DNA of 64,000 nt from an uncultured Bacteroidota bacterium (GTDB taxonomy: Bacteria > Bacteroidota > Bacteroidia > AKYH767-A > 2013-40CM-41-45): positions 62,001 to 126,000 of the forward strand of contig CALMQM010000101.1 in NCBI GenBank assembly GCA_937871435.1. Direction: 5' to 3'. A program made the position numbers and the translations under genes. Positions within the stretch are counted from its first letter, which is position 1; each line of letters opens with the position of its first letter. The notes beneath the pieces are model-generated. The model did no database searches, had not been told where the DNA came from, and worked only from the letters and a program-made list of their open reading frames with translations. Of this stretch, positions 1 through 50,490 are shown piece by piece.

Positions 1-3000
1 AACAATTTGTCCTCCTTACGAGGCAACTTTTACAGATACCTCTTTGAATGCAGTATCATGGTTATGGGATTTCGGTGATGGAACAACATCGACTGATCAG
101 AACCCGAGCCATGTTTTCGCTGTTCCGGGATATCATAGTGTATCGTTGTCGATAACTACAGCTGATGGTTGTACTTATTCTACCATGCAAAGTAACAGTG
201 TTTACTTTGTTCCGTTTGGTGCACACTTCTATGGAGTTCCTCAAGGATTAACTTTCCCTATGCCAGTGCAGTTTTATGCAAACTCTGTAGGAGCTACTTC
301 ATGGTTGTGGGATTTTGGTGACAGCACAACTTCTTCACTGGAAAATCCATTTCATATTTATCAAACAAACGGTAATTATAATGTGACACTGACTATTTCA
401 AACGGACTGTGTACATTATTCTATGATCCGCCTCCGTTTAATTTTGGTACTCCGGATACAACACCTGTGAATACAGGAAATCCGGGTGTTCCGGAAGTTC
501 AACAAGGATGTGCGCCGCTCACCGTGAATTTCACGAATGTAATTCCGGGTTCAGTTGTCTGGCATTGGGATTTTGGTGATGGCGATACCTCATCGTTACA
601 ATTCCCAAATCATACCTATGAAAATGCAGGTATCTATACTGTCAGTCTGACAACTACAGATACACTCGGAATTGTGCAGATCTATCAAATGGACAGCATA
701 GTTCGGGTGGCCGGACCGCGAGCCGGCTTCATTGTGAGTCAGTCGGCGAGCTGTACATCGACACAAGTATCATTCATTGATACATCACAGAATGCGACTT
801 CATGGGAATGGGATTTCGGAGACGGAAATACATCCACTTTGTCAAGCCCATCACATGTGTACAGCAGCGGAATGCCGAATTATATCATTACCCAGACTGT
901 AAGTGATACAATGGGTTGTACAAGTGCAATATCAACCAGTATCTATTCCAATTTTGTAAGTCCGCTGCTTGCCAGTGAAACAGAAATTTGCGGTCTGGAT
1001 ACCGTAGATTTTTATACGAGTCTGCAAAATTACGCTTCCTATCTCTGGGATTTTGGTGACAGCACGACATCGACGCAGGTTTCTCCGAAACATGTGTATG
1101 CACACGAAGGAGTTTATACAACGACTCTCACGGTAACTGACCAGGCAGGTTGTTCACAGACTTTCCAGGTAAATCCTCCTATCACAGTAAGTTTACCTGA
1201 AGTGGCATTTACGACAACAACCGGTCGTCAAGGTTGTAATACGATTAACATTCAATTTGTCAATCAATCTTCCAACGCGGATTCGTACTTGTGGAATTTC
1301 GGAGATGGAACAATTTCTTCTCTTGAAAACCCAATGCACTCCTATCTGGATCCGGGACATTATGACGTGTCTCTCACTATCTTCAGGGGAAACTGTGCAA
1401 GTACTTTGAACTATCCCGAATACATTCGTGTAGATACGGCTCATGCTGATTTCACTATGACAGGCAACAGCATCTGTATGCCTTATGATATTCAATTCAC
1501 AGACCTGAGTGCAAATGCCGTTAGCTGGGCATGGAACTTCGGTACCGGTGATTCATCAAACGTGCAAAACCCCTTGTATACTTTCTCGGACTATACAGGA
1601 TTGGTGATGTCACTTGCTATTGTGGACGTAAACGGATGCCGTGACACAGCCTTCAGTCCGCCACCGTCTCCTCTTTTAGCCGACTTCAAAGCATCTCTTG
1701 ATACCGGATGTATTCCGATGGTTGTTCACTTCGATAACAGCTCATTGAATGCGGTACATTATTTCTGGGATTTCGGTGATGGAACTACCTCGACTGATGT
1801 TTCTCCGGATCATACCTATACACAAGCTGGTGATTACAACGTAAAACTGATTGTACAGTCGACACCATTCTATGGAAGTTGTACTGATACACTTGATATG
1901 CAGGCGTTGATTCATGCACGCGAACCGATTGCAGGATTTTCTACTCCGGATCGTTATGCATGCGCACCTTCACTGGTGAATTTTACAGATCTTTCACTTG
2001 ATGCTGATTCCTACCTGTGGGATTTCGGGGACAGCACAACATCAACGAACAGCAATCCATCACACATTTACAATAATCCCGGATTGTATTCTGTATCACT
2101 GATTGTTTCCAGCAATGCCGGATGTCAGGATACATTGAATATGCCGGATTACATTCGTGTGTTGGGACCATTGACAAATTTCACTGCAGATGTATTCGAA
2201 GGATGTGTTCCTTTCCAGGTACAGTTCACGGATCACAGTCATGATGCGGTAGAATGGAACTGGAGTTTTGGCGATGGTTATGCAGAATATGCCATGAGTC
2301 CGGGACACTTGTTCCAGGATACCGGAAGCTTTACTGTTTCATTGGTCACAAAAGATACTGCCGGTTGCAGTTCATATTATGAATTGCCGCAACGAATAAT
2401 TGTACATCCGTCACCAACCGCGGCTTATACAACGAGCAATATCAGTGGATGTCAGCCTTTCACAGCAACGTTTGTCAACACTTCATCAGGTTATACTTCT
2501 TCCTTGTGGAATTTCGGTGACGGAGGAACATCTACGGATAACGATCCAAATCATTTATATCTGGATGATGGTATTTATGCAGTACAGCTTATTGCTTCCA
2601 ATAATTTTGGATGTGCCGATACTTTCACGGCTGTCCAACCGTTGCGGGTTCTTCCTTCTCCCAATGCTTCCTTCACTGCCGGAGCAACACAAGGTTGCGC
2701 ACCGTTCCACGTCAATTTCTTTAACGCGACGACCAACGTAAACGGATCAACATACTTATGGGATTTCGGTGACGGGCAAACATCTACGAGTATGCATCCT
2801 TCCATTACATATCAAACTCCGGGATTCTATACTGTGAGTTTGTATGTGACAAATACGAATGGTTGCAGCGACTCTGTTTCATTCCCGGCGATGATTCATG
2901 TATTGGATACACTTCCTCCGAATGAAACAAAGATTTACAGTGTATCTGTGAGTTCAAATTCTACCGTAGAAATTAAATGGGAAAACAACCCGGCAATTGA

Positions 3001-3946
3001 TCTGGCATCGTATGTCTTGTACAGACTCAATCAGAATACACATTACTACGAATCAATTTATACGGAAACAAATATCCAAAACACCGGATTCTCTACCGAG
3101 AATACTTTTGTTGATTCCGGCTTGAATACTCTGCGAAATACTTATACATATAAAATCCAGGCATTGGATATTTGTGGAAATACAATTCCATTGGATCAAC
3201 TAACGGCCCACACTACGATCAATGTTTCTTCACAGCGACAGGGTCAGGATATACATGTGTCATGGACACCTTATTCCGGTTGCCCTGTGAGCAGCTATGA
3301 AATTTACCGTTGTGAACCGGGAGAAACTCCGCAGTATCTCACCACTGTTCCACCGGATACTCTCGATTATACAGATACCACGTTTGAATGTCCGCATCCG
3401 TATTCTTACAGGATCAAGGCAACTGATCTTTGTGGAACGAGTTATATTTCATACAGTGATACATCAGTAACAATTCCATTAAACACATTGGCCAATCAGA
3501 TTGTAGATGTAGTACGATCTACAGTGGTAGACAATCAATTTGTACTTACTGAATGGAAAGAACCAGTTGTTCATCCGGAGAAAGTCGCTCAGTTTGATAT
3601 TTACCGGTCTACCGACAATGTGAATTTCTCTTACGTTGCTACGGTACCTTCATTACAAACTGATTATCCTGACTATTCAGTGGATGTACAAAACAATCAT
3701 TACTACTACAAGATCCTTGTTGTGAATACTTGTGATATCACTGAAGATCTGAGTCCGATTACATCTACAATTCTCCTGCGCGGAGAAATGAATGAAGGAC
3801 GTCAGGTACATCTTGAATGGACACCATACAAAGGCTGGGAACCGGGAGTGGAATATTATATCCTGGAGAAGCTGGATGAAAATGGTCATTGGCAGGTCCT
3901 GAAGCAGGTGAATGGAAATCAATTGCAGTACGATTATCAGGAATAA
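1..3946 (+). CDS. Giant PKD-repeat surface protein, 5' end outside window
   Basis: The frame is open from base 2 and runs to TAA at 3944-3946, so at least 1314 codons are present and the true start lies upstream. Twelve PKD domains are visible up to about base 2900. Each has a W/Y-x-W-[DNS]-F-G core (mostly WDFGD[GS]), a TSTxxNPxHxY turn and a GCxD strand, and the first is cut by the window edge. From about 2930 the chain becomes fibronectin-III-like (IYR, YSYRIKATD, WTPYKGW motifs), four partial or complete units. PKD and Fn3 modules are extracellular adhesive or spacer domains, and in Bacteroidota such proteins are normally T9SS cargo. This one stops in the middle of the last Fn3 unit and has no sorting domain, so it looks truncated. 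The family assignment is firm; ligand and function are unknown. Confidence 0.9.
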   Translation, partial: TICPPYEATFTDTSLNAVSWLWDFGDGTTSTDQNPSHVFAVPGYHSVSLSITTADGCTYSTMQSNSVYFVPFGAHFYGVPQGLTFPMPVQFYANSVGATSWLWDFGDSTTSSLENPFHIYQTNGNYNVTLTISNGLCTLFYDPPPFNFGTPDTTPVNTGNPGVPEVQQGCAPLTVNFTNVIPGSVVWHWDFGDGDTSSLQFPNHTYENAGIYTVSLTTTDTLGIVQIYQMDSIVRVAGPRAGFIVSQSASCTSTQVSFIDTSQNATSWEWDFGDGNTSTLSSPSHVYSSGMPNYIITQTVSDTMGCTSAISTSIYSNFVSPLLASETEICGLDTVDFYTSLQNYASYLWDFGDSTTSTQVSPKHVYAHEGVYTTTLTVTDQAGCSQTFQVNPPITVSLPEVAFTTTTGRQGCNTINIQFVNQSSNADSYLWNFGDGTISSLENPMHSYLDPGHYDVSLTIFRGNCASTLNYPEYIRVDTAHADFTMTGNSICMPYDIQFTDLSANAVSWAWNFGTGDSSNVQNPLYTFSDYTGLVMSLAIVDVNGCRDTAFSPPPSPLLADFKASLDTGCIPMVVHFDNSSLNAVHYFWDFGDGTTSTDVSPDHTYTQAGDYNVKLIVQSTPFYGSCTDTLDMQALIHAREPIAGFSTPDRYACAPSLVNFTDLSLDADSYLWDFGDSTTSTNSNPSHIYNNPGLYSVSLIVSSNAGCQDTLNMPDYIRVLGPLTNFTADVFEGCVPFQVQFTDHSHDAVEWNWSFGDGYAEYAMSPGHLFQDTGSFTVSLVTKDTAGCSSYYELPQRIIVHPSPTAAYTTSNISGCQPFTATFVNTSSGYTSSLWNFGDGGTSTDNDPNHLYLDDGIYAVQLIASNNFGCADTFTAVQPLRVLPSPNASFTAGATQGCAPFHVNFFNATTNVNGSTYLWDFGDGQTSTSMHPSITYQTPGFYTVSLYVTNTNGCSDSVSFPAMIHVLDTLPPNETKIYSVSVSSNSTVEIKWENNPAIDLASYVLYRLNQNTHYYESIYTETNIQNTGFSTENTFVDSGLNTLRNTYTYKIQALDICGNTIPLDQLTAHTTINVSSQRQGQDIHVSWTPYSGCPVSSYEIYRCEPGETPQYLTTVPPDTLDYTDTTFECPHPYSYRIKATDLCGTSYISYSDTSVTIPLNTLANQIVDVVRSTVVDNQFVLTEWKEPVVHPEKVAQFDIYRSTDNVNFSYVATVPSLQTDYPDYSVDVQNNHYYYKILVVNTCDITEDLSPITSTILLRGEMNEGRQVHLEWTPYKGWEPGVEYYILEKLDENGHWQVLKQVNGNQLQYDYQE

Positions 3947-27876: not shown

Positions 27877-27884
27877 TAAGTTTG
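27877..27884 (+). promoter_or_regulatory. Candidate -7 box of the deacetylase-like lipoprotein gene
   Basis: TAAGTTTG follows a T-tract and lies 36 bases before ATG 27921. It argues that the in-frame TTG at 27882 is promoter, not start codon. Confidence 0.45.
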
Positions 27885-27920
27885 CCAGTATTCAATCCTC
27901 CTAAAATTCAGGCGCAACCG

Positions 27921-29846
27921 ATGTTTGAGCGTAGTCGATTATTCCCTTCACATTTCCGTGTTCTCTTCCTTTTTGGAATCATCTTGATTTCTGCCTGTAG
28001 TTCTGACCGGCAGGGTGATGAGATCGGTGCTATGCAAAACACCACATACCCGGAAGTTTATGAAGTCAGGAAAAATGAAATTTTCGTTTCCCCTTCTGTT
28101 CGCGGACCAGAAGACAAGTCTGTTTTCCAGGCAAGAGTCGCAACACCCTGGGAAAAATATTCCTTAGGAGCTCCAAGCAGGATGGCAATTCTCGTGACTG
28201 ATACAACTGCTTCATGGCTTGGTGTGGCTCATGGTTTAAAATCAATCGGAATTCCGTTCATTATCACCACCGATTACAAAAAAGCCCTGGAACATAAAGT
28301 AGTGATGGTGTATCCGGTAATTTCAGGTGCAGCTCTTTCTCCTGATGCTTTGCAGGCACTTGCAGCATTTCCCCGCAATGGAGGAACGCTGATCGGTATT
28401 CAGGTTCTCGGCGCCTTGAATGAAGTGTTTGGTTTTGATGAAGCGATGCCGTCTAAACAGCATTTCGAAATCCTGATCAAACCGGATTCCAACAATGTAC
28501 TCACCAGTGAATTCACGGATGCTAAAGAACAACGCATTTCACTTGGCAACAAAGAACGATTTAAAGAAACGATCGGAACTTACAGCTATTCAAAGACACA
28601 ACTTCCGGCGATTGCAACTTATGAAGACAAATCCACTGCCATTTCTCAGAGATTTTATGAGAGTGGTAAAGCCTATGCATTCGGATTTGATATCGGCTTC
28701 CTCATTCTGAAAGCACACAACAACCGTCACGAAGACTTCAACAGATCTCCGATCAATGATTTTGAACCGACGATTGATGTTATTCTTCGCTTGCTGAAAA
28801 ATATATACCGTGATAGCGACAAGGACGCCAGTACAATTTGTACTGTTCCTTATAACAAGGACCTCTCAGTTTGCATCACACACAATATCAATTTCAAGAA
28901 AGCGATGGACGAGGCGGTTGGTTTCGCGAAAGAAGAGAAGAAAATGGGAATTCATTCCACCTACTTCATCCAGACGAAATACATCCGTGACCGAAGCTCA
29001 GCTATTTTCAGCAGCAACGATGATTTCAAAAAGTTACGGGATCTGTTTGCTTTAGGAATGGATCTGCAAAGTAACTCAGTTTCCGGCTCTCCTTTGTTTG
29101 ATCAGTTTGAACAGGGAACGGGTGATGAAGTTTATCCGGACTACCGACCCTATGTCATGGCTTGGGACAAAACTTACAAAGGCAGCATCTACGGAGAAAT
29201 GCGCGTGAGCAGGTTTCTGATTGACCATTTTGTTCCAGTAAACAACAGCATGTGTTTCCGTTCAACACATCTGTATACACCATTTACTTATCCTCAAAGT
29301 CTGCTTGCAACCGGTTATCGCTTTAGCAGTTCTGTTTCCGCCAATGCTTCTCTGACGCATTTGCCTTTCCAGATGAATTACAACCGTGAATACGATACGG
29401 AAGTGGAAGCTTTCGAATTCCCAATCACTGACGACGACGAAATTCCACCCTACACTCTGAATCGTGCAGCATCTGCCATCCGACTGGCAAAGAAAATTGC
29501 ACGGTATGGCGGATGTTTTATCGGACAGGTTCACCCGAACAGTATGGGACTCCAGGTAGAAAAGGCATTCATTGATAAAATAGGAGAAAGTGCCTGGTAC
29601 GGAACAATCCGTGATTTCGGTTTATGGTGGGCTGCCCGCAATGAGGTTACTCTCGATATTACCCGTGAAGGCGGAAGACGAGTTGTGACAGTCAATGTGC
29701 CGAAAAGAATGGAGGGACTTGCGATTATGTTACCACTGCGTTCAACTCCTGTTGCTGTTGAAGGCGGCGGGAAATATTCTGTCGATGGTAAACTGATCAT
29801 TTTTGAACTCGCTGAAGGTCCGATCAAAATTACACTGGACAACTAA
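27921..29846 (+). CDS. Lipoprotein with degenerate polysaccharide-deacetylase-like domain
   Basis: This is a 641-aa protein from ATG 27921. The frame is open to a TTG 39 bases earlier, but the ATG directly precedes the signal MFERSRLF and a lipobox LISAC (Cys26). An N-terminal Rossmann or glutamine-amidotransferase-like region spans about residues 85-190 (RMAILVTDTTASWLGVAHGL, GGTLIGIQVLG). From about 305 a beta/alpha deacetylase-like region follows (LSVCITHNIN, STYFIQTKY, CFRSTHLYTPFTYP, GYRFSSS, GCFIGQVHPN). In active relatives the first motif usually reads THDVD; here the acids are Asn, and the zinc His segment reads LQSNSVSG. The C-terminus is a small beta domain. It probably binds or once cleaved surface glycans. 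Confidence 0.62.
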   Translation: MFERSRLFPSHFRVLFLFGIILISACSSDRQGDEIGAMQNTTYPEVYEVRKNEIFVSPSVRGPEDKSVFQARVATPWEKYSLGAPSRMAILVTDTTASWLGVAHGLKSIGIPFIITTDYKKALEHKVVMVYPVISGAALSPDALQALAAFPRNGGTLIGIQVLGALNEVFGFDEAMPSKQHFEILIKPDSNNVLTSEFTDAKEQRISLGNKERFKETIGTYSYSKTQLPAIATYEDKSTAISQRFYESGKAYAFGFDIGFLILKAHNNRHEDFNRSPINDFEPTIDVILRLLKNIYRDSDKDASTICTVPYNKDLSVCITHNINFKKAMDEAVGFAKEEKKMGIHSTYFIQTKYIRDRSSAIFSSNDDFKKLRDLFALGMDLQSNSVSGSPLFDQFEQGTGDEVYPDYRPYVMAWDKTYKGSIYGEMRVSRFLIDHFVPVNNSMCFRSTHLYTPFTYPQSLLATGYRFSSSVSANASLTHLPFQMNYNREYDTEVEAFEFPITDDDEIPPYTLNRAASAIRLAKKIARYGGCFIGQVHPNSMGLQVEKAFIDKIGESAWYGTIRDFGLWWAARNEVTLDITREGGRRVVTVNVPKRMEGLAIMLPLRSTPVAVEGGGKYSVDGKLIIFELAEGPIKITLDN

Positions 29847-38567: not shown

Positions 38568-41500
38568 TTATTGGCGAATAAAAGGAATTTGTGTTTTCAG
38601 TTGAGCACCGGTCAATTCAATAAAATAAATTCCGGGTGCACAATTCTCCAGATTCAATTCGACATTTTCTCCTGTGAAATTTTCCACTGAATAAATAATT
38701 TTTCCAGTGATGTCATGAATAAGGAGGGATTGAACTGCTCCTGCTCCATTCCAGCTTAGCTGACACCGACCATTCACAGGATTCGGGAACAAGCGAATGG
38801 AATAATCCGAAAGATAATCCGGTACTCCAACCGGACCAATATTTACATACAAAGTATCTGTATAATCACATTGAGAATCGGATTCATTCACCACAATAAT
38901 TCCTGTTCCCATTCCCTGCCATGCAACCGCGATACTGTCAGTACCATTTCCAAAAACAATATTGCCTCCTGTAACTGTCCATGTGTAAACATGACCGGGA
39001 ACATCATTTACGGAATAACCAGTAGTATGAAATGCATTCACAGCCGTAGAACCGGTAATATCCGGCGCGGTAAATCCATGGAATGTCGCGAAAGTAAATA
39101 TCAAACTGTCACATCCATTTACATCACTCAATGTACTGATGTACGTTCCGGAAACAGTGACCGGTGTGCCATCAGGCAAAAGGTAAGTTTCACCCTGACA
39201 TAAATCTACATTGAATGAAAATGTCGGCGGTGGAGTCACTGTAAGCACCAATGAATATGAACTGTCACATCCGTTGATAGTCTGAAACGAGGTAACATAC
39301 GTACCGGGAGTGCTTACCTCCTGTCCATCCGGAAGAATAACTGTTTTACCCTGACAAATAGTTTCGGTTGTATTACTTCTGAATGTCGGATACACAGTCA
39401 GATTTGTAGTAACTACAGAATCACATCCGCCTTGTGCTGCCAGTGTAACAACATAAGTACCGGTAGCGTTCACATCCTGACCATCAGGAAGTGTGAAAAC
39501 TTCTCCCTGACAAATAAATCCGTTTTGAGACTGAGAATAATTCGGATAGACAGACAGCACTGTCAACACAGTGGAATCACATCCTGAAGGTGTCTGGTAA
39601 GTAATTGGATAGTTTCCTGACTGAGTTACAGTTTGTCCATTCGGCAAAACATACGATTCACCCTGACAAATGGAAGCAGGAATGGTATTGATGATCGACG
39701 AACCGACAGTCAATACCGTTGTTACAAGAGAATCACAACCTTGAGTTGTATGCAATAGCACCGGATAAGAGCCTGCAGTACTCACCACCTGATTGTTCGG
39801 CAAGGTGTAGGAACTACCCTGACAGATCGAAACATTGTTGGTAACTGTGAACACAGGATTCACACTCAGGTTTGTTGTGATAACAGAATCACATCCATGA
39901 AATGTCTGAAAACTTACAGGGTAACTTCCAGGCGAAGTTACAACGGTTCCTCCCGGCAAAGTATAACTGCTCCCCTGGCAAATTGATGCATTGCGGGTGA
40001 TGTAATAAGCTGCGTTGATAGACAGGTTTGTCGTGATCACAGAGTCACAACCAAATGTAGTGAACAATACTACAGGGTAACTTCCGGCCGTACTTACAAT
40101 CTGTCCATTTGGTAAAACAAAACTCTCACCCTGACAAATAGCCTCATTTCGTACAATGGAATAACTTGGTTTTACAACAAGAGTTGTGGTAATTACAGAA
40201 TCACAATTCTGTAAGGTTTGTAATGTCACAGGATACGTTCCTGAGGTGCTGACCGATTGACCATTTGGTAAAACAAAGGTTGCCCCCTGACAAATCACCG
40301 CATTCCTGGAGATGGAATAAGTTGGATTCACTGTGAGCGTTGTGGAAACTACAGAATCACATCCATGTATGGATGAAAGTGTGACAGCATAGACACCTGA
40401 AGTACTCACACTTTGTCCGTTTGGCAATGTAAAGCTTGCACCCTGGCAAATCGAAGCTGTTCTTGTCACATTGTAAACCGGATAAACAATCAACGTAGTT
40501 GTGATTACTGAATCACATCCGCTTGTTGTATGCAAAGTGATAGGGTAAACTCCGGCAGAAGAAACCACGGTTCCTCCGGGAAGAGTATAGGATTGACCAA
40601 TGCAAATCGACGCATTTCTGGATATGGAATACGTTGGATTCACTGTCAGCACGGTTGTAATAATTGAATCACAATTTCCAACGGTCTGTAAAGTTACCGG
40701 ATAAGTACCGGATGTATTCACAGAAACATTATTCGGCAACAAATACGATTGCCCCTGGCAAATCGATGCATTCACAGTTGACGAATAAGTTGGTTTCACA
40801 GTGAGCACAGTTGTGATCAATGAATCACAATTATTCATCGTATTCAATGTAACCGGATATGTTCCGGCTGTACTCACCGATTGTCCGTTCGGCAAGGAAT
40901 AGGTAGCTCCCTGACAAATGGAGGCATTTACATTGCTGCTATATACAGGGTTTACCACAAGGTTTGTTGTGATAGTGCTGTCACAATTTCCGATTGACTG
41001 GAGTGTTACCGGATAGGAACCGGAAGTACTTACAATACTTCCATCCGGTAAAGTAAATGTAGCTCCCTGACATATGCTTTCATTCCTTGTAATACTATAA
41101 GTAGGTCGTAAACTCAATACTGTGGTAATTGTTGAATCACAACCCAGACTCGACACCAATGTTACCGGATAAGTTCCCGCTGAAGTTTCCACTTGTCCGT
41201 TAGGTAAAGTGTATCCATCACCCTGACAAACCGATGCCTGTACCTGATAATCATATGTCGGAGAAACTGAAATCTGAACTGCATCTGTGCAGGTGCTTAC
41301 TCCGTCATCTACTGTTACAGTGTAAACAGTAAGGGCAGAAGGACTAACCTGAATACTACTTGTTGTCTCGGTGGTTGACCATGTATAAGAAACAAAAGAA
41401 CCACTTACACTTAAAACCAGTTGCGTTCCGTTGCAAACTGTTGTATCCACCTGATTGATGGTTACTGTACATCCACCTCTGTGAACAGAGGAATTTTGTG

Positions 41501-41603
41501 CATTGGAATTAGTGGAGCTACATGCAAAAGCTAAAATAAGAATACCGAAAATCAGGTAGGCTGAAGAAAAACTTTTGGATATCTTAGGTAAAAATGAAAT
41601 CAT
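38568..41603 (-). CDS. T9SS-sorted surface protein with fourteen 52-aa repeats
   Basis: This is a 1011-aa exported protein. The N-terminal signal could be cut after SNA (before QNSS) or at the lipobox-like LAFAC. Residues 45-114 form an Ig-like unit (VCNGTQLVLSVSG). Residues 115-842 are fourteen gapless 52-residue repeats with consensus ICQGxSYxLPNG, VSTSGxYPVTL and GCDSxITT; two Cys per repeat are almost invariant. A PKD-like unit follows (about 845-915). The last 85 residues are a T9SS type A sorting domain (RLFPNPVNG, DITGKIIYS, LENCAPGIYFIEL). It is therefore predicted to be secreted and attached to the surface. Its role is unknown; adhesion or a surface layer is plausible. Confidence 0.88.
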   Translation of the reverse strand: MISFLPKISKSFSSAYLIFGILILAFACSSTNSNAQNSSVHRGGCTVTINQVDTTVCNGTQLVLSVSGSFVSYTWSTTETTSSIQVSPSALTVYTVTVDDGVSTCTDAVQISVSPTYDYQVQASVCQGDGYTLPNGQVETSAGTYPVTLVSSLGCDSTITTVLSLRPTYSITRNESICQGATFTLPDGSIVSTSGSYPVTLQSIGNCDSTITTNLVVNPVYSSNVNASICQGATYSLPNGQSVSTAGTYPVTLNTMNNCDSLITTVLTVKPTYSSTVNASICQGQSYLLPNNVSVNTSGTYPVTLQTVGNCDSIITTVLTVNPTYSISRNASICIGQSYTLPGGTVVSSAGVYPITLHTTSGCDSVITTTLIVYPVYNVTRTASICQGASFTLPNGQSVSTSGVYAVTLSSIHGCDSVVSTTLTVNPTYSISRNAVICQGATFVLPNGQSVSTSGTYPVTLQTLQNCDSVITTTLVVKPSYSIVRNEAICQGESFVLPNGQIVSTAGSYPVVLFTTFGCDSVITTNLSINAAYYITRNASICQGSSYTLPGGTVVTSPGSYPVSFQTFHGCDSVITTNLSVNPVFTVTNNVSICQGSSYTLPNNQVVSTAGSYPVLLHTTQGCDSLVTTVLTVGSSIINTIPASICQGESYVLPNGQTVTQSGNYPITYQTPSGCDSTVLTVLSVYPNYSQSQNGFICQGEVFTLPDGQDVNATGTYVVTLAAQGGCDSVVTTNLTVYPTFRSNTTETICQGKTVILPDGQEVSTPGTYVTSFQTINGCDSSYSLVLTVTPPPTFSFNVDLCQGETYLLPDGTPVTVSGTYISTLSDVNGCDSLIFTFATFHGFTAPDITGSTAVNAFHTTGYSVNDVPGHVYTWTVTGGNIVFGNGTDSIAVAWQGMGTGIIVVNESDSQCDYTDTLYVNIGPVGVPDYLSDYSIRLFPNPVNGRCQLSWNGAGAVQSLLIHDITGKIIYSVENFTGENVELNLENCAPGIYFIELTGAQLKTQIPFIRQ
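39078..41261 (-). repeat. Fourteen tandem 156-bp coding repeats
   Basis: The repeat array inside the surface protein has a constant 156-bp period with no insertion or deletion over 14 units. At protein level the Cys, GxY and CDS positions are fixed, while DNA copies have diverged, so this is an old, selected array rather than a fresh expansion. Confidence 0.9.
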
Positions 41604-48109: not shown

Positions 48110-50458
48110 TCAGCCTTGTTTCCAACCTTTTTTGAAGGCTCTTTCAAGTACTTTCAATCGCTTGTCGCCTTGTGTATACTTTAAGGCTGCTGATTTCCAG
48201 TCTTTCCCTCCTGTCAATGCCTTGTCTCGTATACCTAATTGTAGTCCCAGACGACTCAATTCATCCTTGTAAAAACCCGGTGCATACGAGCGGGAAAGCA
48301 GTTGACGGATTACCTCAAGAGACTTTTCCAACTCCTTCGCTGAGGTATATCGGTCTGCCAGGAAAATGAGAAAGTTGTTGTTCATTTTTGCAAAAGCGAA
48401 ATCTGTAAAACCGGCATGACGAAGTCCAAATCCGGCCAGGGTGGAACGATCGAAATAACTGCCCGCTTCTGAATATGCATCAACAGCCTCCTGATACCGC
48501 TTTTGATTTTGTAATTCAAACACGTGCTCAATCATGTGTTCATAGCTGATTGCCGGCCGGATACTGTCAAGTATAACCGATAATCCACCATCATTCAAAC
48601 TGCATTGTTCATTTTCAGAAAGAATTTTCTGTGCCTGTAGTATGATTGTTTCCGCTTTCAGATAATCCAAAGAAGATAGTGCATTTTTCAGTTCCTGCAT
48701 TTGTGTATCAAAAAGAAGCTGGGAATTCTGACATTCCTGAGAAAAAATTCCGGCCTGTACTTTTTTTAATGACTCTTGCACTTCTTTGTCTTCCTGCAAT
48801 CCATACTTATTTTGAAACTCCATGGATTCTCTGGTCAGTTTTCGGGCAGATGCCAGGTCATTTTTTCCGGTATATTCCTGCACTGTAGCGAACATTGACA
48901 TTAAAACCGGTTTGGCTGATAGCTTCAACAATGAATTGATATCCGGATCTGCAATTAAGCCGTACTGCTTTTGATAATCTGTCGCCGCTTCATATCGTTG
49001 AACAGCTAATTTATATTGCCGTTCCTGAAAAAGTGATTTCCCTTCCAATACTTTCCTCTCATATTTTTTCTGTCGTACCTGATTCAACATTTCAGTTGCT
49101 TCTGAGGTAAAATTGACATCCCTCGGGAATTGCTTTTGAAAACTGATTGCGCGCAAAACAATCTGTTCAGTTTGATCAAGATCTCCCTGCTGATAATATC
49201 GTTTTGAATCATCAATCATGGAAGTATAAATAGCCGTTCTCACTTTTTTATAACCGTCTTCCAGTCTGCGATCACAGACCAAAGCTCCCATTGAAAAACA
49301 GAGATGATTCGCTTTATTCAAAAAATCCAATGCTGATTCAAGATGCCTGGAATTAAATTGAACATCTGCCTGCCTGAGATAATAATCGTAAATGGAACCG
49401 GCAAGTTGTGTAGTATTTCTTCTTGTATCCGGATCCGGATTCATTTCTCCCAAAATTTCCAACAGTCTGCATTCGGATTCTCCGATATTTCCTTCCTCAT
49501 AATCCATCTCTGCAAGCTGATACGCGGCAGGAGCAAAACGAGGATTTTCCACTAAAGATCTTCGAAACGATTCTCTGGCGAAATTTCTTCTGCCATGACT
49601 CAACAAATCCATTCCTCGCTGAAAAAAGAATAAATACAAATTAGCTCTGGCTTCCAGCAATCTCTCTTTGATTTCATTTGCATGCTGCTTCGTATTTTGA
49701 TACCTGTCATTGAAATGGATTGGATCATGATTGAACAAATCCAACTTCTCAGAAAAATTATATAACTCCAGAGTCATCAACTGTTGCTCCACGGAACTTA
49801 GAATTCCTGTTTGTGCATCAAGATGTTCCATATCTACAGGTAAAATAGAACGTAGTTGCTGTTCCGCGCCTGTCAGAATCGCGTCAGATGAATAATAATT
49901 TTGAATGAGAGCCAGGCGATCCCGTATTTTCCCGGAAGTAAAGGGAGCAAACAAAAACTCCACTTCACTTACTTCAAGGTTCATCTGCTTTGCACCTGAA
50001 TCCTGGACCACTACATTCGCGTCGGAAGTATTGCCATTTTGAATAGCTAATTCTTTCTTGTATTCAGGAACAGGAAAACCGGGCTTGCCATTCAGAATCT
50101 TCATCGAAAAACGCACAGAAACAGGTTGGATCAGTTCATCCAATGCAAAGCCTTTGTTCACTATAGAACGACTGTTACGAACAGATGTAAAACGAACGCC
50201 GGCAAGATATTCCGTGCGACTGCGAGCCGAAATTTCCCGTAACAGATCAAACTCCAGAGGAATTTCAGCGAAGGAACCCGGTCGCATCCCTTGTGCCTGT
50301 GCAAGAAGCGCCATCATTTTATTCACTTCCGCATCTCCTTCCGGGGAATACTTAACGATATATGTCAAATGCCGTTGATCATGAAAGTTCTTACCCGACT
50401 GTGCTTTCAGACCAAGACATGCTAAGTTAAAGAGGAGTATTACTAAAATTTTCTTCAT
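48110..50458 (-). CDS. Large exported helical/TPR-like protein
   Basis: This is a 782-aa protein from Met 50458 (MKKILVILLFNLACLGLKAQ), a clean signal peptide ending KAQ. An in-frame Met at 50476 adds six residues. The N-terminal 160 residues are beta-rich and include an integrin-like arrangement of short strands. The rest is helical, with loosely TPR-like pairs (ARESFRRSLVENPRFAPAAYQLAEMDYEEG, YQQGDLDQTEQIVLRAISF, QNQKRYQEAVDAYSEAGSYF). No enzyme motif is visible. Like the exported TPR protein on the other side of serS it may scaffold an envelope complex. The family is not recognised with certainty. Confidence 0.75.
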   Translation of the reverse strand: MKKILVILLFNLACLGLKAQSGKNFHDQRHLTYIVKYSPEGDAEVNKMMALLAQAQGMRPGSFAEIPLEFDLLREISARSRTEYLAGVRFTSVRNSRSIVNKGFALDELIQPVSVRFSMKILNGKPGFPVPEYKKELAIQNGNTSDANVVVQDSGAKQMNLEVSEVEFLFAPFTSGKIRDRLALIQNYYSSDAILTGAEQQLRSILPVDMEHLDAQTGILSSVEQQLMTLELYNFSEKLDLFNHDPIHFNDRYQNTKQHANEIKERLLEARANLYLFFFQRGMDLLSHGRRNFARESFRRSLVENPRFAPAAYQLAEMDYEEGNIGESECRLLEILGEMNPDPDTRRNTTQLAGSIYDYYLRQADVQFNSRHLESALDFLNKANHLCFSMGALVCDRRLEDGYKKVRTAIYTSMIDDSKRYYQQGDLDQTEQIVLRAISFQKQFPRDVNFTSEATEMLNQVRQKKYERKVLEGKSLFQERQYKLAVQRYEAATDYQKQYGLIADPDINSLLKLSAKPVLMSMFATVQEYTGKNDLASARKLTRESMEFQNKYGLQEDKEVQESLKKVQAGIFSQECQNSQLLFDTQMQELKNALSSLDYLKAETIILQAQKILSENEQCSLNDGGLSVILDSIRPAISYEHMIEHVFELQNQKRYQEAVDAYSEAGSYFDRSTLAGFGLRHAGFTDFAFAKMNNNFLIFLADRYTSAKELEKSLEVIRQLLSRSYAPGFYKDELSRLGLQLGIRDKALTGGKDWKSAALKYTQGDKRLKVLERAFKKGWKQG

Positions 50459-50490
50459 ACAAATTTTCTTATTCATTAAAATAACCTGCG

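Follow-up and report, generated by a model that had tools for sequence, protein, structure and literature searches.

How are the paired cysteines of a tandem-repeat surface protein joined to one another? The question is raised by a 64,000-nucleotide stretch of DNA from an uncultured Bacteroidota bacterium (contig CALMQM010000101.1; the whole stretch is called the window here), in which an open reading frame on the minus strand at 38568..41603 encodes a repeat protein of 1011 amino acids (aa) of the type IX secretion system (T9SS) type. The body of the protein is an array of 14 units of 52 aa each (aa 117-844; 39072..41255, minus strand), and each unit bears one cysteine at unit position 10 (C1) and another at position 39 (C2). 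A sequence-only reading had proposed a disulfide inside every unit, which is very likely the wrong one: couplings between positions place C1 and C2 of a unit at opposite poles, and cysteine losses and array ends fit a bond between neighbours. Coupled losses, array ends and coupling analysis together suggest that C1 of unit i bonds C2 of unit i+1. We consider it probable that the protein forms a surface stalk, a row of minimal immunoglobulin-like (Ig-like) domains with a disulfide stapling every junction.

The units themselves are regular and old. As the sequence-only reading had it, there are fourteen gapless units of exactly 52 residues with two near-invariant cysteines, and both cysteines are present in 14/14. 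The CDS motif recurs in 14 copies at a constant step of 52 and the ICQG-type motif in 13 copies at the same step, the first copy, VCQG (aa 125), being in phase too. Gly12, Leu17-Pro18, Gly27, Tyr29 and Cys-Asp-Ser are each invariant in 14/14 units. The LPNG turn noted earlier survives in part: LP is invariant, but the motif is really LP[N/D/G][G/N], with N in 8/14 and G in 12/14. Mean pairwise identity among the 14 units is 51% for amino acids and 55% for nucleotides. The suggested comparison of synonymous (dS) and nonsynonymous (dN) divergence, carried out by the Nei-Gojobori method (NG86), gave a median dN of 0.50 and a median dS of 1.66 over 72 usable pairs of 91, the 19 pairs without a usable dS being left out of the medians. 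Because nucleotide identity is 55% and the median dS is 1.66, there has been no recent duplication, and the units are old copies under constraint. Chance or recent duplication as the source of the repeats was ruled out by the conservation of the units together with their divergence.

Which cysteines are lost together? Losses were counted over 152 arrays comprising 1223 units in 145 reading frames, with cysteine calls allowing +/-3 residues. These came from 173 of 205 loci and from 828 frames, reduced to 796 once duplicates were removed; units with an i-Evalue >=0.05, alignments of <23 positions and arrays of <3 units were dropped before the count. C1(i) and C2(i+1) were both lost in five cases and singly in 13 (Fisher p=3e-8), and counting the three L058 copies once leaves a hypergeometric p=5e-5. 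Three arrays from different Bacteroidota account for the five double losses: L058 contributes three, L074 and L081 one each. By place, C1 was missing from 7/143 first, 6/918 internal and 9/152 last units, and C2 from 3/152, 8/917 and 2/144, respectively. Several doubtful losses were left in these counts: by eye, the first-unit C1 losses of L114, L042, L185, L196 and L200 resemble other domain types, one L081 frame (L081|10133) is truncated, and the C2 losses of L190 (twice), L184 and L199 have their cysteine just beyond the calling window. The L058 array has a peculiarity of its own. Within its frame at 1854, aa 663-1070 form a three-unit super-repeat, and each set of three units lacks one C1(i)/C2(i+1) pair, as though every third staple had been taken out.

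The ends of the arrays offer a separate test, because a final unit with nothing behind it would leave its C1 without a partner. From the 152 arrays we left out 23 whose frame is open at the 3' end, 8 with a tail of <75 aa and 6 that lead into a further array, which leaves 8 arrays abutting the sorting domain (tail of 75-105 aa) and 107 with a longer tail. Six of the 8 abutting arrays lack C1 in the last unit (L058, L063, L079, L088, L148 and L159), and all six keep C2 there; L148 and L159 come from loci gathered after the idea had formed. The two abutting arrays that keep the last C1, L080 and L036, have a cysteine just behind the unit. With a longer tail, the last C1 is missing in only 2/107 arrays (L048 and L147), a difference from the abutting arrays with p=2.7e-7. 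In L053, an additional, diverged unit can be recognized by eye immediately ahead of the sorting domain; it retains C2 but not C1. The start of the arrays proves little: first units without C2 are few (L158, L022 and L039), and L158 has no cysteine in the 185 residues shown before the array, whereas L022 and L039 do have cysteines there.

Mean-field coupling of neighbouring units was computed from 1017 pairs (effective number of sequences, 732), with a second version of 992 pairs ungapped at the cysteines. The strongest inter-unit coupling was C1(i)-C2(i+1), at rank 2 overall with all pairs and at rank 1 in the ungapped version, 10.5 standard deviations (sd) out. Without L058 it stood at rank 5 and 6.8 sd, and in three partner shuffles it fell to 2.0-2.9 sd. 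An inter-unit contact that does not involve cysteine, linking position 50 with position 37 of the unit after it, reached 4.4-4.7 sd against -0.4 to 0.2 sd when shuffled. Within the unit, the couplings outline an F-G hairpin (32-42, 33-41, 28-46), a small hairpin (16-22, 17-23) and a parallel pairing of strands A and G (3-43, 5-45, 6-46, 9-49, 8-50). With A (2-10) and G (40-50) parallel, C1, at the end of A beside position 50, comes to lie at the exit pole and C2, just before position 40, at the entry pole. On these couplings, then, the two cysteines of one unit sit at opposite poles but are adjacent across the junction.

Is a row of separate domains what such units would form? The sequence-only reading had asked for a structure prediction of consecutive repeats, and AlphaFold2 (AF2), given 95 sequences with window units 5-8 as the first row, returned a well-folded four-unit model with a mean predicted local distance difference test score (pLDDT) of 95.4 and a predicted template modelling score (pTM) of 0.66, the latter making the placement of the domains less certain than the domains themselves. 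Strands were predicted at positions 2-10, 15-16, 22-23, 27-34 and 40-50 of each unit. The two best Foldseek matches of the model in the PDB were parts of the GhpA rod (grappling hook protein A of Aureispira sp. CCB-QB1; E 7.7e-10 and 1.2e-8). VIA structural alignment placed GhpA fragments at ranks 1-6 and 8, each spanning all four units, with 206-208 model residues aligned at a root-mean-square deviation of 6.7-7.0 Å and Z of 5.2-6.6, a middling range that speaks for likeness of fold only. These alignments extend over ~330-340 GhpA residues, so one 52-aa unit corresponds to one ~82-aa GhpA domain. Single units also fit isolated Ig domains (5f4e, 51 residues at 2.3 Å, Z 5.1; 4jgj, 51 residues at 1.7 Å, Z 4.7), again as a likeness of fold only. 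A solenoid was considered in place of beads and rejected: single units fit Ig domains on their own, and four units follow about four GhpA domains. On the model, the array is a head-to-tail row of minimal Ig-like domains.

Besides the limits on the pTM and the GhpA Z scores, several observations weigh against a stapled junction. All five double losses were already in the first set of loci, and the 60 regions added later gave none. When the five are removed, the C1(i)-C2(i+1) coupling drops to 4.2 sd and to second place among inter-unit pairs. The rule is broken outright by L084 unit 12, which has lost C2 while C1 of unit 11 is kept, and by L063 unit 1 and L197 unit 2, which have lost C1 while the next C2 is kept; further single losses resemble, when inspected by eye, adjacent domains called in error, truncated frames or cysteines that have shifted. 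The p-values overstate the case, because some of these data had prompted the idea in the first place and because the units of one array are related. Finally, the longer Ig-like domains of the same loci, counted after the 52-aa units had been removed, showed no double loss in 406 pairs, and their C1(i)-C2(i+1) coupling was weak (rank 21 of 12165, outranked by three other inter-domain pairs). A mixed version of that count (15 same-domain double losses, p=0.008) is distrusted, its C1 column being wrong. For these longer domains the C1(i)-C2(i+1) rule is only suggested.

Could the cysteines be engaged in some other way? They might link different chains as lateral or fibre cross-links, bind metal or stay reduced, and that the array cysteines are oxidized is indeed something we infer; yet the loss rule follows neighbours within one chain, which is not expected from bonds between chains, and we regard this set of possibilities as unlikely. 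That each unit carries its own C1(i)-C2(i) disulfide, the array being a string of independent disulfide-stabilized beads, appears very unlikely. Both cysteines occur together in 1169/1204 scored units, as that arrangement would have it, though any pairing gives this. Against it, none of the 1204 scored units has lost both cysteines, while 35 have lost one; the last units abutting the sorting domain lose C1 and keep C2; the parallel A-G pairing sets C1 and C2 about ten strand residues apart; and the intra-unit coupling reaches 2.1-3.6 sd over four versions, compared with the 10.5 sd of C1(i)-C2(i+1) in the ungapped version. A link between neighbours in the opposite sense, C2(i)-C1(i+1) across the 23-residue joining segment, is scarcely credible, for although that segment is constant in length (967/1045), there are no double losses against 26 single ones, C2 should be lost from last units where the six abutting ones lost C1 and kept C2, the coupling is 2.3-3.1 sd over four versions, and the two cysteines stand at opposite ends of the G-linker-A spine.

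Lengths across the family bear on a further claim, that a constant period reflects strict structural phasing. In family arrays, 967/1045 of the segments leading from C2 to the next C1 are 23 residues long. The distance from C1 to C2 varies more: it is 28 or 29 in 956 of at least 1173 cases, and the listed lengths run from 24 to 41. The spine across the junction is therefore the length that changes least. The unit step equals the mode of its own array in 764/904 cases, and the period is the same throughout in 42/93 arrays of at least five units. The claim of strict phasing is thus right in part.

Returning to disulfides that join C1 of one unit to C2 of the next, how far would they reach along the window protein? 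All of its parts lie on the minus strand. A signal peptide region with a hydrophobic stretch, judged by eye, covers aa 1-36 (41496..41603), holds C28 and would be cleaved near SNA-Q. It is followed by an N-terminal Ig-like cap domain, also recognized by eye (aa 45-116; 41256..41471), with C45, C57 and C105. Behind the array come a beta-rich domain without a Pfam match (aa 845-925; 38829..39071), whose single cysteine is C912, and a T9SS type A sorting domain (aa 938-1011; 38571..38792) with C947 and C988. Within the array the rule would give 13 staples, from C126-C207 to C750-C831. By extrapolation, C57-C155 would join the N-terminal Ig-like domain to the array, C802 (C1 of unit 14) would join the array to the next domain through C912, and C45-C105 would form a cap bond within the N-terminal domain. 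The rule can thus account for all 32 cysteines between the signal peptide and the sorting domain in 16 putative bonds, the three outside the array being extrapolated. The extra N-terminal cysteine and the equivalent of C912, a lone cysteine behind the array, are kept in both orthologues (G001 and G010). AF2 of the C-terminal end, with three sequences in the alignment, was poor (mean pLDDT 56.5).

That a T9SS type A domain ends the chain, as first read from the sequence, is borne out by both Por_Secre_tail PF18962 (45.5 bits; cut-off 27) and TIGR04183 (28.1 bits; cut-off 23). A SprA/Sov translocon gene is present in the window's own genome (TIGR04189, 2698.8 bits; cut-off 200), and the sorting domain and this gene together are consistent with the predicted surface or secreted protein of T9SS type. 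On the basis of known biology, the chain would be exported by Sec, would fold and be oxidized in the periplasm and would then pass the T9SS translocon, after which the type A sorting domain would direct attachment to the surface or release from it. Disulfides in the Bacteroidota envelope are reported for other proteins in excerpts from PMC12635249 (SprF-GldK and GldK-PorG). The stalk likely serves as a stiff spacer or adhesive fibre, very roughly 50 nm long (14 domains of ~3.5-4 nm, estimated from strand lengths). It would resist pulling and proteases, because opening a junction would require a covalent bond to be broken. For what the stalk carries or binds, the obvious candidate is the Ig-like domain at the opposite end from the sorting domain.

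How widespread are these repeats? When six three-unit rows were used to scan a genome collection, 370 stretches emerged as candidates and 333 of them were confirmed. Among the best 80 of the 333 (79 loci), the record titles name Bacteroidota groups except for L029 (Solirubrobacterales) and L042 (uncultured bacterium). The array of L029 (contig VRUE01000077.1) is typical and Bacteroidota-like, and the contig is possibly mis-binned. Close profile matches occur in 27/296 sampled genomes of the phylum, the window's own included, and a wider 95-row profile matches 42/42 genomes of the window's order, some weakly. Units of the family are mostly 51-52 aa long, and scored arrays hold up to 48 units. 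One locus, L081 (contig CAJJDD010000008.1), has many short unit-bearing frames in series, as if assembly frameshifts had split one long array.

Existing models capture the repeats poorly. In the window protein, the repeat region had no match above cut-off in Pfam or NCBIfam; the nearest Pfam model was MOV-10_Ig-like (24.1 bits; cut-off 27.4), Big_4 (PF07532) reached 20.0 bits (cut-off 22.1), and Ig_7 (PF19081, the CHU_C-associated Ig-like domain) was not among the Pfam matches at E<=1. Both Big_4 and Ig_7 are, like the window units, short bacterial Ig-like domains. Across the 95 four-unit members, judged at E<=0.01 without curated cut-offs, the most-matched Pfam family was DUF6799, with only 7/95, and Ig_7 and Big_4 were each matched by 4/95. 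The commonest NCBIfam matches, NuoB models in 23/95 and 16/95, are implausible. By these profile searches, the units are members of a large repeat family of Bacteroidota without a convincing model in Pfam or NCBIfam. In the open-access literature, the titles and abstract starts of the best-ranked papers mentioned neither these repeats nor junction disulfides in bacterial Ig rods.

The closest known structure remains GhpA (PDB 9flp, 9fls, 9flu, 9flv, 9flw, 9flx and 9g8b), likewise a long tandem Ig-like rod from Bacteroidota, whose domains carry C1-like (CEGD) and C2-like (NGC.S) cysteines as the window units do. GhpA differs in its ~82-aa domains and 5898-aa chain, compared with 52-aa units and 1011 aa here, and in being a heptamer according to excerpts from PMC13319060. 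The repeat profile gave no match at E<=1 against all PDB sequences, those of GhpA included. Covalent cross-links in tandem Ig-like surface rods are also described for Gram-positive adhesins and pilins such as the Mobiluncus mulieris adhesin; in excerpts from PMC10619420, however, these are isopeptide, ester or disulfide bonds inside a domain, whereas the bond proposed here would span two neighbours. SasG of Staphylococcus aureus is likewise a monomeric extended repeat stalk in which interfaces matter for extension, but in excerpts from PMC4458895 it is built of G5/E domains and has no covalent cross-links.

The window repeat gene is accessory. Nine family genomes could be judged for the stretch that runs from the rsmA side to the aspartate kinase gene, and three of them carry the gene there (the window's own, G001 and G010); the same place lacks it in G003, G004, G005, G007, G008 and G009, with G004 judged from coordinates alone. 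G002 and G006 were not counted, the two markers being on different contigs. In G001 and G010 the contigs break inside the array, leaving the two ends of the gene on separate contigs, so no unit counts could be obtained. The place itself looks like an insertion spot, holding no extra gene or unrelated genes in relatives (G003, G005, G007, G008 and G009; L115-L117, L123 and L124). Elsewhere in the window's own genome, a second repeat protein is seemingly split by the assembly inside near-identical units between contigs C102 (ends 153337) and C25 (ends 96160) (L104, L103): an N-terminal part, a 1112-aa frame, ends one contig, and a C-terminal part of 760 aa with further Cys-rich Ig-like repeats starts the other. 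In the window, another repeat protein of 1300 aa with 11 PKD_4 stretches is encoded near the edge at 44-3946 (plus strand), and proteins of 788 and 654 aa without a Pfam match at E<=1e-5 are encoded at 48110-50476 (minus strand) and 27882-29846 (plus strand).

What would a disulfide at every junction mean? If true, the corrected pairing would make the array a covalent ladder rather than a string of beads, and a large family that is so far uncatalogued would gain a simple rule open to testing. The rule would show where an array starts and ends and how many units are tied together, and it would explain why low identity is tolerated while the length of the junction is kept. It would also provide a module of 52 residues from which stiff protein rods with covalent staples could be built. 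The family is common yet lacks a suitable Pfam or NCBIfam model, and many large surface proteins may thus carry the annotation of their sorting tail alone. We give an even chance to the broader proposal that Bacteroidota have their own covalent way to mechanically strong rods, in which minimal Ig domains, bonded C1(i)-C2(i+1) at every junction and capped at both ends, would form one continuous ladder, equivalent in function to the isopeptide bonds within the domains of Gram-positive pili, under a rule that may extend to longer Ig-like domains, including those of GhpA.

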